Below, one piece after another: positions 1-51,281 of a DNA stretch of 64,000 bases. Numbering within the stretch: position 1 is the first letter of the stretch; the number at the start of each line of letters is the position of its first letter. A program made the position numbers and the translations under genes. Under the pieces are notes generated by a model, which ran no database searches, was not told the origin of the DNA, and worked only from the letters and a program-made list of their open reading frames with translations. Source of the stretch: Novosphingobium kaempferiae (GTDB lineage: Bacteria > Pseudomonadota > Alphaproteobacteria > Sphingomonadales > Sphingomonadaceae); contig NZ_CP089301.1 of the NCBI RefSeq assembly GCF_021227995.1, positions 2,976,001 through 3,040,000 on the forward strand, written 5' to 3'.

Positions 1-1703
1 TCGAGGTCTTCCTTGTCCCACTCGATGAAAGTGCGCTTCTCCATCGCCGCATTGTGGATCGGCACGAGTTCGTCGAGCCGACCTTCGCTCAGCACGAAGC
101 CGCCGACATGCTGCGAAAGGTGGCGGGGGTATTCGAGGAGCCGCCCCACCATGTCGCGCAGACGCTCCACCTGCGGGTTGGCGGGGTCAAACCCGGCTTC
201 GGTCAGGCGGGTTTCGGGCAGTTCGGTGCCACCCCAGCTGCCCCAGACGGTACCGGAGAGGCGCGTGGTGATGTCCTCGCTCATGCCCAGCACCTTGCCG
301 ACTTCGCGGATGGCGCTGCGCTGGCGATAACGGATGACGGTGGCGGCAATCCCGGCACGGTCGCGGCCGTAGCGATTGTAGATATACTGCATCACCTCTT
401 CGCGCCGCTCGTGCTCGAAATCGACGTCGATGTCGGGCGGCTCGTCCCGCTCGGTGGAGAGGAAGCGCGTGAACAGCAGTTTTTCTTCCACCGGGTCGAT
501 CGGCGTGACGCCAAGGAAGTAGCAGACCAGCGAATTGGCCGCGCTGCCGCGTCCCTGACACAGAATCGGCGGATCGAGACTGCGCGCGTAATGCACGATG
601 TCGTGGACGGTGAGGAAGTAGTAGGCGATCTTCTGGTCACGGATCAGGCCGAATTCCTCGTTCAGCGTCTCTTGGTACCTGGGTGGCAGGCCATCGGGGA
701 ACCACTTGCGCGAGCCCTCCATGACGAGATGCTCCAGCCACGGCTGCGGCTCCCAACCTTCGGGCACCGGCTCGTGCGGGTATTCGTAGCGCAAGTCGTC
801 GAGGGTGAATTTCACACAGGCCAGCAAGTCCTGCGTCGCCGCCAGCGCCTCGGGGCAGGCGCGGAACAGGCGGGCCATCTCGACGGGGAACTTGAGGTGC
901 CGCTCGGCATTGGCGGCGAGGCGGCGACCGGCGGTCTGGACGGTCAACCCCTCGCGGATGCAGGTGAGGACGTCCTGCATCGGCCTGTCCTCCGGCGTCG
1001 CATAAAGCACGTCGTTGGTGGCGATCAGGGGGACGCCGGTGCGCTGCGACAGCGCCATCCGCTCCGCCAGCCGACGCGCGTCGCGACCGGCACGGGGCAT
1101 GGTGGCGGCAAGCCAGAGCCTGACCGTAGTTTCCGCCTTGCCCCCTCCTTCGTCATTGCGAGCGTAGCGAAGCAATCCATGCGGTGCGCGATGCCGCTGG
1201 ATTGCTTCGCTACGCTCGCAATGACGAGGTGTGAGTGTAGATGTGGAGTGCGAATGAGCAGCCAGCGCCCGCAACGTGGCAAGCAGCGCTTCGTCCCCAT
1301 CCCCACTACCCGGCATCACGATCAGCGCCATCTCCTGCGCATGTTCGACGAGGTCGCTCAGGTGCAGTTCGCACTCGCCCTTCTTCGACTTGCGGTTGCC
1401 CAGGGTCAGCAGGCGCGTCAGGCGGCCCCAGCCGTGGCGCGTCATCGGATAGGCCACGATGTCGGGCGTGCCGTCCGCGAAGACCAGCCGCGCGCCGACG
1501 ATCAGGCGCAGCCCGCTTTTTGCCCTCCCGATCTCCTTCCATGCACGATGGGCGCGGACCACGCCCGCCACGGTGTTGCGGTCGGCGATGCCGATGCCGG
1601 TCATGCCCATCGCCTGCGCCCGCACGACCATCTCCGCTCCCGGCGAGGCGCCGCGCAGGAAGCTGAAATTGGTGGCGGTGACGAGTTCCGCGAAAGCACT
1701 CAC
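1..1703 (-). CDS. dnaE2: Error-prone DNA polymerase DnaE2 (ImuC), N-terminal part; runs off the left edge
   Basis: Translesion polymerase of the SOS mutasome, a second DnaE-type alpha subunit working with ImuA, ImuB and the beta clamp in the cytoplasm. About 567 N-terminal residues are visible. They open with a PHP-like N-terminus (TNFSFLRGAS near residue 10) and continue to the conserved VPLIATNDVLY and QDVLTCIREG segments. The polymerase aspartates are visible in PDIDVDFEHERR. The C-terminal third or more lies outside the window. The GTG start at 1703 overlaps the imuB stop in a GTGA quartet, so translation is probably coupled to imuB. Unusual: residues about 159-185 are encoded by an interspersed palindromic repeat (1150-1227). 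The frame stays open through it and returns to canonical DnaE2 sequence. The family assignment is firm; whether the protein with this insert is active is unknown. Confidence 0.93.
   Translation of the reverse strand, partial: MSAFAELVTATNFSFLRGASPGAEMVVRAQAMGMTGIGIADRNTVAGVVRAHRAWKEIGRAKSGLRLIVGARLVFADGTPDIVAYPMTRHGWGRLTRLLTLGNRKSKKGECELHLSDLVEHAQEMALIVMPGSGDGDEALLATLRALAAHSHSTSTLTPRHCERSEAIQRHRAPHGLLRYARNDEGGGKAETTVRLWLAATMPRAGRDARRLAERMALSQRTGVPLIATNDVLYATPEDRPMQDVLTCIREGLTVQTAGRRLAANAERHLKFPVEMARLFRACPEALAATQDLLACVKFTLDDLRYEYPHEPVPEGWEPQPWLEHLVMEGSRKWFPDGLPPRYQETLNEEFGLIRDQKIAYYFLTVHDIVHYARSLDPPILCQGRGSAANSLVCYFLGVTPIDPVEEKLLFTRFLSTERDEPPDIDVDFEHERREEVMQYIYNRYGRDRAGIAATVIRYRQRSAIREVGKVLGMSEDITTRLSGTVWGSWGGTELPETRLTEAGFDPANPQVERLRDMVGRLLEYPRHLSQHVGGFVLSEGRLDELVPIHNAAMEKRTFIEWDKEDL
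1150..1227. repeat. Palindromic repeat A, copy 1, in frame inside dnaE2
   Basis: One arm reads CGTCATTGCGAGCGTAGCGA and the other is its inverse complement; about 20 variable bases lie between them. All other copies in the window are intergenic. This one lies within dnaE2 and is read as about 26 codons without a stop, beginning RHCERSEAIQ on the coding strand. Confidence 0.95.
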
Positions 1704-3280
1704 GGGAACAGGCCGTGCAGATACCAGCGCGGGTCCGGCTTCTCGCTGAACAGGCCGTGGCGGAAGATCCAGTAGCGCCGCCCGTCCGCGTCCTCGATGC
1801 GGTAGTAGTCGCGCGTCTCCCCCGCTCCGCCGGGCATGTGCCCGCCGCGCCGCCGCCACCATTCCGCGCCAATCCGCTCCGGCCCCTCGGCCAACGTGAC
1901 GTCGTGGAGGCGCCCCTTCCAGCGGAAGCGCTGCGGCGGACTGTCGGGCACACCCGCGATCACGTCCACCTGCTGCGGCGGGTCGAGGAGGAGGAGTGGA
2001 CGCGGTGGCACGTCCTCGGGCGGCGGCCACTGGACGTTGCGGAGGCGCAGCGCCGGGACCAGCGCCTGCGCCTTCTCGGGCAAGTGCCGGTCGCGGGGGG
2101 CGACACGGCGCACGCTGTCCTCGCCCATCCGCACGCTGAGCTGGTCGACCAGTGCGGCCACGTCGTCGGCGTTCTCCTCCCTGCCGTCCTCCAGCATGAT
2201 CTGGCGCGAAGGCAGGTGCTGCGCGCCGAGTACCGCCAGCGTGATCGCATCGAAGCCGAAGCCGGGGTCCAGCGGGTCGGAAAGCGTGTCGATCCGCTCG
2301 CGCAGGAGGCGCATGACGGCAGCGGGATCGCGCACCGCCAGCCCGGTTTCCACCGCCAGCCGCCTCCGCGCGTTGTCGGTGCGATGGAGCGTGACGAGGA
2401 AGCGCCGCCCGCCGAGCTGGCGCTGCTCCATCGTGCGCGACGCCTGCGCCAGCAGATCCTCGATCACGTCGAGCGCGTCGTCGGTCCGCGCGAGGGGTTC
2501 GGGAAAGCGGGTTTCCAGCCGGATCGGCTCGGCCAGGCGCAAGGGGACGACGGGGCTGCCCGCTTCGCCCAGGATCGCGCGCAGGCGGGTGACGGCGAGT
2601 TCGCCGAAGCGCGCCGCGAGGCCCGCCATCGGACGGCTGGCGAGATCGCCCAGCGTCTCCAGCCCGGCGCGGCGCAGGCCGGACAGGGCCTCCGCGTCCA
2701 GTTCCAGCGCGGAGACCGGCAGGGCGCGCACGTCCGTCCCCCCACCGAAGCGCGCCAGCGCGCGGGCGGCGGCGACATGGGGGGCGAGCGCGTGGCGCAC
2801 GGCATGGCCGGTGGCGGCGAGCACCGCACGCACCAGCGCCGCCTCCCCGCCGAACAGGTGCGCGCAGCCGGTCACGTCGAGCACCACGCCGTCGGGGGCA
2901 TCGAGCGAGACGAGCGGGGTGAAGGCGATCATCGCTCCCGCCAGCCGCTCCAGCGCGCGGGAATCGGCGACGGGATCGTGCGGCGCGGTGGCGAGGTCCG
3001 GGCAGCGCGCGCGGGCATCGGCCAGCGTCATGCCCGCGCCAAGGCCCTGCCGCACCGCCGCCACGTCCACCGCCGCGAGGCGCAGCGCCTGCCCCTCGCG
3101 CGCGAAGAGTGCCTGCGGGCCTTCTCCGTCAGGCAATGCGCCGCAGCGGCGCGCCCGTTCGCAGGGCAGGAAGGGGAACCACAGCGCCAGATAGCGGCGC
3201 GGCCCGTCCGCCTGCCCGGTCGTCGGCGTCAGCGGCAGCGTGGTCGAGGGGTATGTCGCGGAATCCGCCATGTTCGTCAT
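1700..3280 (-). CDS. imuB: ImuB, catalytically dead Y-family polymerase-like mutasome protein
   Basis: Adaptor of the ImuABC mutasome; in characterised systems it bridges the beta clamp, ImuA and DnaE2. About 526 residues. The Y-family-like N-terminus reads RRYLALWFPFLPCERARR, with no aspartate where active Y-family polymerases have the catalytic DxD region. This agrees with the known inactivity of ImuB. The finger/palm-like and little-finger-like segments follow, and the C-terminus ends WYLHGLFP. The ATG at 3280 was chosen because it follows a weak purine-rich site and immediately precedes the conserved N-terminus. An ATG at 3271 is also possible. An upstream in-frame start would add about 53 arginine-rich residues that look like antisense-of-imuA noise. 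The first ~150 bases overlap the 3' end of imuA in another frame; the stop overlaps the dnaE2 start. Confidence 0.92.
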   Translation of the reverse strand: MTNMADSATYPSTTLPLTPTTGQADGPRRYLALWFPFLPCERARRCGALPDGEGPQALFAREGQALRLAAVDVAAVRQGLGAGMTLADARARCPDLATAPHDPVADSRALERLAGAMIAFTPLVSLDAPDGVVLDVTGCAHLFGGEAALVRAVLAATGHAVRHALAPHVAAARALARFGGGTDVRALPVSALELDAEALSGLRRAGLETLGDLASRPMAGLAARFGELAVTRLRAILGEAGSPVVPLRLAEPIRLETRFPEPLARTDDALDVIEDLLAQASRTMEQRQLGGRRFLVTLHRTDNARRRLAVETGLAVRDPAAVMRLLRERIDTLSDPLDPGFGFDAITLAVLGAQHLPSRQIMLEDGREENADDVAALVDQLSVRMGEDSVRRVAPRDRHLPEKAQALVPALRLRNVQWPPPEDVPPRPLLLLDPPQQVDVIAGVPDSPPQRFRWKGRLHDVTLAEGPERIGAEWWRRRGGHMPGGAGETRDYYRIEDADGRRYWIFRHGLFSEKPDPRWYLHGLFP

Positions 3281-3887
3281 TCCATTCCAGCCGCCAGCGC
3301 ATTCCCGCCGGTCCGCCCCGCCGCCGGACCAGTTCGACCAGCAATGCCGGAGGACCGGGAGCGCGCGGCTCCAGCGGGACGGAGGGCGCGGTGGAGACCG
3401 TCCAGCGGGTATGCGCGGCGCTCGGGCGCGGGTCGGCATCGCCGCGCAGCATGACCACCGGGATGCGCGAGCGCTCCGCCGCGAGGATCAGGCGGCGGCT
3501 CGCCACCATGTCGTATTCGCGCAGTCGCCCCCAGCTCTCGACGATGACGGCGGCCGGGCCGCTGCTGCGCGCCGCGTCAAGCCCTGCCCGCAGCAGCGCC
3601 GCATCGTCGCGCGCGTCGATGACGACCAGCCGGGCGGGATCGACGCCGAACGCGGCGAAGCCCGCGCCGTAAGGCACCATCGCCGCCCCGCGCCTGCGGG
3701 TGCGCAGCAGCAGCACCGGCTTGCGACCGTCTGCATCCATTGCACCCAGCCCGAAGGCGAGCGCCCCCGCCCAGTCCACGCCATCGGCATGGACTTCGTG
3801 CAGCTGCGCGCGGGCGAGCCGGGGGATGCCGCCGCCGCTATCGGGGGGCGGATCTTCGATGCAGGCGCCGGCCTGATCGTGGAACAT
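3129..3887 (-). CDS. imuA: ImuA, RecA-like SOS mutasome protein
   Basis: First gene of the imuA-imuB-dnaE2 cassette. ImuA proteins resemble RecA/SulA-like ATPase folds and support damage-induced mutagenesis. Family-typical segments include LARAQLHEVHADG near residue 25, FGLGAMDADGRKPVLLL, VIVESWGRLREYDMVASRRL and a C-terminal MRWRLEWNDEHGG. The protein has 252 residues. Its last ~50 residues are encoded in a region that also encodes the N-terminus of ImuB in another frame. The start is the ATG at 3887, about 27 bases downstream of a perfect LexA box, so SOS control is very likely. Family assignment comes from these motifs and from the diagnostic gene order. Confidence 0.88.
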   Translation of the reverse strand: MFHDQAGACIEDPPPDSGGGIPRLARAQLHEVHADGVDWAGALAFGLGAMDADGRKPVLLLRTRRRGAAMVPYGAGFAAFGVDPARLVVIDARDDAALLRAGLDAARSSGPAAVIVESWGRLREYDMVASRRLILAAERSRIPVVMLRGDADPRPSAAHTRWTVSTAPSVPLEPRAPGPPALLVELVRRRGGPAGMRWRLEWNDEHGGFRDIPLDHAAADADDRAGGRAAPLSGAVVPLPALRTGAPLRRIA

Positions 3888-3913: not shown

Positions 3914-3928
3914 GTTCCTATTATGTTC
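3914..3928 (-). promoter_or_regulatory. LexA (SOS) box upstream of imuA
   Basis: GTTCCTATTATGTTC is an exact GTTC-N7-GTTC direct repeat, the LexA operator form of alphaproteobacteria (GAAC-N7-GAAC when read toward imuA). It lies 27-41 bases before the imuA start, where it could overlap the promoter. Confidence 0.9.
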
Positions 3929-51189: not shown

Positions 51190-51265
51190 CGTCATTGCGA
51201 GGACCGAAGGTCCGCGGCAATCCGGCGGCAGGCGCTGCGGTGGATTGCTACGCTCGCAATGACGA
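51190..51265. repeat. Palindromic repeat A, copy 5, hybrid arms
   Basis: The left arm is of a different subtype, with its own small hairpin GACCGAAGGTC, while the right arm is of the usual T/A kind but shortened. It lies between the cytochrome b561 and receptor genes on the minus strand, within the message upstream of the receptor. Confidence 0.85.
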
Positions 51266-51281
51266 AACAGGCTGACATTCC

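Follow-up and report, generated by a model that had tools for sequence, protein, structure and literature searches.

A CGTC-tagged, REP-like palindrome read in frame within dnaE2 of Novosphingobium kaempferiae, and other palindromes in the same stretch of DnaE2 genes

CGTC-tagged REPs have been described, and DnaE2 has been named among the REP-tagged proteins, in the main text of Di Nocera et al. (2013; PMC3733652), according to which these elements have no dedicated transposase and REP-tagged repair genes are speculated to help make hypermutable strains. As to the polymerase, the metal sites of the PHP domain are mostly not conserved in DnaE2 according to the main texts of PMC3919608 and PMC12926913, and in the latter the PHP domain was modelled as the most extensive contact of DnaE2 with the C-terminal barrel of ImuB. 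The first-pass annotation of the DNA considered here had pointed to a palindromic repeat read in frame within dnaE2, had compared it with the palindromes that enter genes in frame in Rickettsia, and had regarded such an event in a sphingomonad as notable. The comparison is apt, RPE-4 and RPE-6 being placed among the CGTC elements in the main text of PMC3733652, but the claim of novelty in kind had to be given up, as the same text already names DnaE2 among the tagged proteins and sphingomonads among the hosts. For this reason, the single case is one more REP-tagged DnaE2 and adds to a class described, and so known, since 2013 (PMC3733652, main text). At the same time, no account of different palindromes recurring in one stretch of DnaE2, as seen here in other Sphingomonadales, was found in the open-licence literature, taken as main texts without supplements.

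The window, i.e., the whole 64,000-nt stretch of N. kaempferiae DNA that was analysed, begins within dnaE2, the gene of an error-prone C-family polymerase (3..1703, minus strand). Cut at the window edge, the gene has 567 residues inside the window, counted from its GTG start at 1703; it is complete in the genome (1067 aa) and matches the Pfam families PHP, DNA_pol3_alpha, finger, HHH_6 and OB. The CGTC-tagged palindromic element (1151..1226, minus strand), a head-to-head dimer of two 28-nt arms and a 20-nt centre, is read without a stop as residues 160-185 of DnaE2 and is flanked on either side by conserved polymerase sequence. The initial claim of a full repeat copy in the dnaE2 frame, lacking a stop and followed by conserved sequence, was therefore confirmed, with a length of 76 nt and residues 160-185 as its extent; the interval proposed for it, 1150-1227, contained the element and one flanking base too many per side. 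The proposed size of about 26 residues is correct for the element, whereas the net extra stretch is 45 codons when compared with the insert-free relative G101. This whole extra stretch (1119..1268, minus strand) covers residues 146-195, and opposite its 50 residues G101 has five and reads LLATLR-GLTPK-LWLAATM. The net gain against G101 is 45 codons in the window's own genome (G000) and 59 in a second insert-bearing genome (G029). An assembly artefact is an unlikely source of the insert, since the genome is one contig and a separate assembly, that of G029, has an insert of differing sequence at this site.

Upstream of dnaE2 lies an imuB-like gene (1700..3439, minus strand; Pfam IMS and IMS_C), given here as the longest open frame, with the true start probably further inside. 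Further upstream is an open frame without a Pfam match (3129..3887, minus strand), which is assigned to the imuA position from its place and the usual operon order. A GTTC-N7-GTTC motif, which resembles a LexA box, is located 26 nt upstream of the ATG of this frame (3914..3928, strand not assigned); it is the single match in the window, yet 1.30 matches would be expected by chance. Two more dnaE2-like genes were noted in the genome (G000:C1:3303594-3305138 and 4783193-4784737), with 47-48% identity over the longer segment.

The element has the form CGTC...GACG, with 0 mismatches to the arm pattern. Its exact arm occurs 431 times in the 5.7-Mb single-contig genome (217 forward and 214 reverse), and the reversed arm pattern, serving as a control, does not occur there. 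The predicted fold of the whole element has an energy of -63.5 kcal/mol (z -14.3; none of 200 shuffles was equally good), and a single unit, in its minimum-energy fold, forms five pairs, an internal bulge and two pairs, leaving unpaired both the terminal CGTC and the tail ...CAATCCA. Each arm carries a stop codon in only one of the three frames. Head-to-head dimers made up 27 of the 39 elements in the 300 kb around dnaE2, 20 of these 27 being 75 nt long, and 23 of the 27 elements in 282 kb of G029. Both ends of the dimers from these two regions are bordered by a pyrimidine-rich tract at -9 to -1, with C at -9 to -3 and T at -1 in 95%; this border might belong to the mobile unit or might reflect a target preference. 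The centre sequences of the repeat differ by species (L141-L170 and L192-L205; G000, G029 and G101). A search for the Y1 transposase family PF01797 gave no match in G000, two in G029 and five in G101. At one site (G000:C1:3058780-3058854), GATCT is found at both edges of the extra stretch and G029 has the short form, as a 5-bp target duplication would give; at the other empty sites no target duplication was seen by eye, and no mobility mechanism is claimed.

That the other copies in the window are intergenic, as had also been stated at the outset, was borne out for the 10 further elements found by an arm search with up to four substitutions: no frame that crosses one of them looks coding, by its base pattern, to the left as well as to the right of the element. 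Shorter or more decayed pieces (e.g., 51224-51266; 11-nt matches) also occur. The survey of the genome covered 102 of at least 217 elements, namely all 39 in the 300 kb and those in 40 further regions, and because these regions were picked mainly for long open frames, the sample favours the finding of coding cases. Among the 102 elements examined, 35 frames run across an element without a stop and continue on either side for no fewer than 60 residues. The initial GC-frame threshold failed all 35, including dnaE2, and the values were hence judged by hand; read in this way, the order GC3 > GC1 > GC2 on both sides was found for the dnaE2 frame alone among the 35. Four look-alike frames with the same GC pattern on both sides were rejected as shadows of two adjacent genes. 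The sister-genome test of the 39 elements yielded 11 candidate rows, and only for dnaE2 did a single frame show 83-91% identity over at least 138 residues on each side of the element. The best reading is that the repeats rarely survive inside genes.

The comparison with DnaE2 of close relatives that had been suggested in the first-pass annotation was carried out, and the insert was absent in 28 of the 29 relatives first aligned, i.e., it was present only in G000 and G029 among 30 loci. The outcome named there as a refutation, an unrelated but equivalent stretch of about 26 residues shared by the relatives, was not what was found: the insert-free genes have a short form. The repeat peptide was found in none of the 107 database homologues that could be parsed out of 120 (13 unparsed). 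Searches with the DnaE2 region of a protein database clustered at 90% recognised no other protein with the insert; the G029 protein may hide in the cluster of P0001, and nothing is concluded from these searches. Exact arms occurred in 22 of 61 genomes, with 431 in G000, 339 in G029 and 0-39 in each of the other 59; in a second set of 12 genomes, four of them common to both sets, arms were present in five, including G101 with 114.

The short form is shared by P0001 (by its database name, the error-prone DNA polymerase of Novosphingobium resinovorum), which is near-identical to G101 there with at least one residue different, and dnaE2 of the outgroup G078 also has the short form. In the DnaE2 tree, which contained P0001 and not G101, the insert-free P0001 is sister to G029 (support 1.000; 96.1% identity); with these two joined, there were either two gains of the insert or a loss on the P0001 lineage. 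Two separate insertions at one site, as against one inherited insertion that was lost by the G101/P0001 lineage, have in our estimate a little less than an even chance. They are favoured by the position of G029 beside P0001, by the match of each copy, in centre type, to the other elements of its genome, by G101 having the short form of the outgroup G078, and by eight of the 39 G000 elements in the 300 kb whose sites are filled in G029 and vacant in G101, the flanks at several of them looking unlike by eye. The opposite is indicated by the upstream extra flanks at dnaE2 of G000 and G029, which resemble each other beyond expectation (an equally good match was reached in 23 of 3000 codon shuffles, and in 471 of 3000 for the downstream flanks), and by dS between G029 and G101, which is 0.34 in codons 100-130 and 1.74 in codons 130-144 against 0.04-0.25 in nine other windows. 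The codon comparison suggests that this raised dS in codons 100-144 of G029 is due either to local recombination or to fast change beside the insert; it stands out less clearly in the comparisons with G000 and G078. The evidence on the origin of the insert is thus divided. Beyond the eight sites mentioned, which run against the DnaE2 tree, the 39 elements comprise two present in all three genomes, 11 whose sites are empty in both G029 and G101, 13 that lack synteny to either of these genomes, and five mixed.

The AlphaFold model of DnaE2 (71 sequences; mean pLDDT 85.3, pTM 0.86) has E. coli Pol III alpha as its best match among solved structures (TM 0.78). Residues 154-188 have pLDDT below 50 and lie in the segment that links helix 136-150 of the PHP domain to strand 195-201, and the insert is accordingly predicted by the model to be a disordered loop. 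The first-pass annotation had suggested that the inserted peptide may alter the PHP region; in the model, the PHP fold around the loop is intact. In a weak alignment (10.4 bits) to 4jom, which is E. coli Pol III alpha with an engineered PHP mutation, the first-motif histidines of 4jom face other residues in DnaE2, and this mismatch agrees with the mostly unconserved PHP sites of DnaE2 described in the main texts of PMC3919608 and PMC12926913. Since the PHP domain was modelled in the main text of PMC12926913 as the most extensive ImuB contact, an effect of the insert on the mutasome is possible. In the mRNA, a hairpin of about -71 kcal/mol is predicted at the insert, and such a hairpin could lower DnaE2 synthesis. 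Between G000 and G029 the insert has dN 0.294 and dS 0.451, and codons 400-600 have dN 0.045 and dS 0.502; judged from these values, the insert appears to evolve loosely. PDIDVDF and many more columns are invariant among the 71 DnaE2 sequences.

Palindromes in DnaE2 genes of other organisms were sought by a loop scan, in which 113 of 131 loci were parsed (18 unparsed; some loci are one genome twice) and loops of at least 118 residues only were considered, and by a full-length scan of 80 dnaE2 genes (260,127 nt) for inverted repeats scoring at least 13. The latter gave seven inverted repeats, four at reference residue 137 (L087, L114, L072 and L093), two at 841-843 (L114 and L123) and a borderline one at residue 874 (L098), and none was found in 250,707 nt of codon-shuffled dnaE2 genes. 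A palindrome is thus carried in the strand-helix-strand stretch of the PHP domain by eight dnaE2 genes, those of G000, G029, L017, L022, L072, L087, L093 and L114. In all six of these that were searched it is repeated in its own genome: beside the exact arms of G000 and G029 there are 83 matches for L087, 77 for L114, 36 for L017 and 53 for L093, and a relative of L114, L120, has 81 matches to the L114 element in its genome; note that a palindrome matches both strands, so that the number of places is about half that of matches, and that the tail of each match list is weak. By sequence the elements fall into the groups G000/G029, L087/L093 (with a decayed L138), L114/L120 and L017, plus L022 and L072, the first four groups being confirmed as repeats. 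The elements of L087 and G000 align with a score of 13 against a shuffle maximum of 12, and a remote tie between them is possible on this comparison. L114 carries two palindromes, one in the PHP stretch and one at the second place; the in-frame palindromes at this second place, residues 841-843, are located at about 6671-6723 in L114 and 6480-6583 in L123.

A single common position within the PHP stretch was not found. The palindromes of L072, L087, L093 and L114 stand before the helix, at reference residue 137, whereas the window's insert stands after it; by eye, that of L017 is after the helix and that of L022 before it. Of the 20 gapped intervals, 133-138 and 841-844 show the greatest spread in length (SD 19.4 and 15.2 residues, respectively). 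The turn 149-195, the site of the window's insert, differs in length across the 80 genes by no more than one residue (SD 0.45). Growth in this turn was seen only in G000, G029 and, by eye, L017 (genome G048), whose unrelated element seems to share the turn; given the near-constant length in the 80 genes, tolerance at the turn is documented by G000, G029 and G048 only. A variable loop accounts for most of the recurrence, fitting the pre-helix loop and the place near residue 841, and as a full explanation it was rejected, since the window's turn is not length-variable. This speaks for something rarer at the window's site, a fixed-length turn still able to take 45 residues.

The 80 dnaE2-centred loci contain 21 inverted repeats scoring at least 18, of which the six that pass the mid-gene coding test lie in dnaE2 (four) and in imuB-like genes (two). 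The imuB control gave no inverted repeat in 27 genes (40,500 nt), but imuB had to be rejected as a clean control, as only 27 of the 80 loci were recognised and, among the 53 missed, two had imuB-like genes with strong palindromes. One of these strong inverted repeats lies within extra residues (L103:2684-2769), and the other looks like an inversion at normal length (L068:2884-2962).

The reading that we prefer, with a probability of about 0.72, is that a repeat copy entered dnaE2 and is borne there thanks to its open frame, a tolerant site and the non-essential nature of an SOS polymerase, the peptide having no evolved function; the estimate was lowered from 0.8 on account of the constant-length turn 149-195 and the failed imuB control. 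A copy of the high-copy CGTC-tagged repeat, together with some flanking DNA, would have entered the turn that joins helix 136-150 to strand 195-201. The gene would have stayed usable, each arm having a stop in one of three frames and the net insert being a multiple of three, and the peptide would form a disordered loop outside a PHP domain with a lost metal site. The polymerase would remain usable if the fold around the insert survives, and insertions elsewhere would presumably be lost; the same filter would account for the other palindromes, those of the pre-helix loop as well as those of the other variable loop, around residue 841.

A functional insert, whose loop alters the mutasome (e.g., at the PHP face meeting ImuB) or whose hairpin lowers DnaE2, and which is kept as a tuner of the mutation rate, would accord with the speculation on hypermutable strains in the main text of PMC3733652, with the modelled ImuB contact in that of PMC12926913, and with a frame kept in two species, G000 and G029, in a turn otherwise constant in length. 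However, the insert is disordered in the model and loosely evolving, and both P0001, the sister of G029, and G101 manage without it, so that we consider this role unlikely. That all six coding-test passes fall in dnaE2 or imuB-like genes also favours it, but the 80 loci were chosen around dnaE2, by which the operon is over-represented, and the L068 case resembles an inversion rather than an insert. It is quite unlikely, too, that palindromic repeats land by preference in this PHP stretch and, more generally, in genes of the SOS mutasome, at least four largely unrelated high-copy elements having become coding in the stretch independently by targeting (e.g., of single-stranded DNA exposed during SOS) or by mutasome tuning. 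A decaying dnaE2, with the insert as the mark of a gene no longer under selection, could be seen in the faster codons upstream of the insert between G000 and G029 (dN 0.156 in codons 100-130 and 0.142 in codons 130-144; of the nine other windows, eight have 0.022-0.075 and one has 0.129). Yet dN/dS is about 0.09-0.16 outside codons 100-130, the 1067 aa are open, PDIDVDF and other columns are invariant in the 71 sequences, and the neighbouring frames are open; decay is very improbable, and as the main reading it was rejected on account of the low dN/dS and the conserved columns.

Mobile palindromes, for the most part non-coding, are here predicted to be turned into protein within a short segment of an SOS polymerase. 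Whether a REP insert in a repair polymerase is neutral or acts as a tuner of mutation can be tested directly, since insert-free sister alleles exist in nature.

When compared with the CGTC-tagged REPs in the main text of PMC3733652, the window's element shares the unpaired CGTC end, the AT first stem pairs, the CCA tail and the prevalence of head-to-head dimers, as well as the alphaproteobacterial host, the high copy number and the mostly intergenic location with in-frame cases at times, dnaE2 included. The absence of a Y1 transposase match in G000 also fits that description. In contrast to the 8-9 bp stem and 4-5 nt loop given there, the unit has five pairs, an internal bulge and two pairs, and its 22-nt core fits none of the stem-plus-loop lengths stated in that text exactly; since the 8-9 bp unit stem was not found, the element is called CGTC-tagged and REP-like, without a family number (1-4). 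Like RPE-4 and RPE-6 of Rickettsia, as presented in the same main text, it is a palindrome among the CGTC elements that is read in frame in a protein; R. conorii has the most intragenic CGTC repeats there, whereas here dnaE2 is the only case among 102 elements out of at least 217 in the genome. As in other in-frame REP-tagged proteins, the frame has no stop, conserved protein lies on both sides and insert-free relatives exist, and the DnaE2 of Figure 7 in PMC3733652 represents the same gene with the same kind of insert. The recurrence differs from the main text of that paper: REPs are reported there in one functional category at different sites (recB of Xanthomonas excepted), whereas in the present genes a single strand-helix-strand stretch repeatedly harbours different elements.
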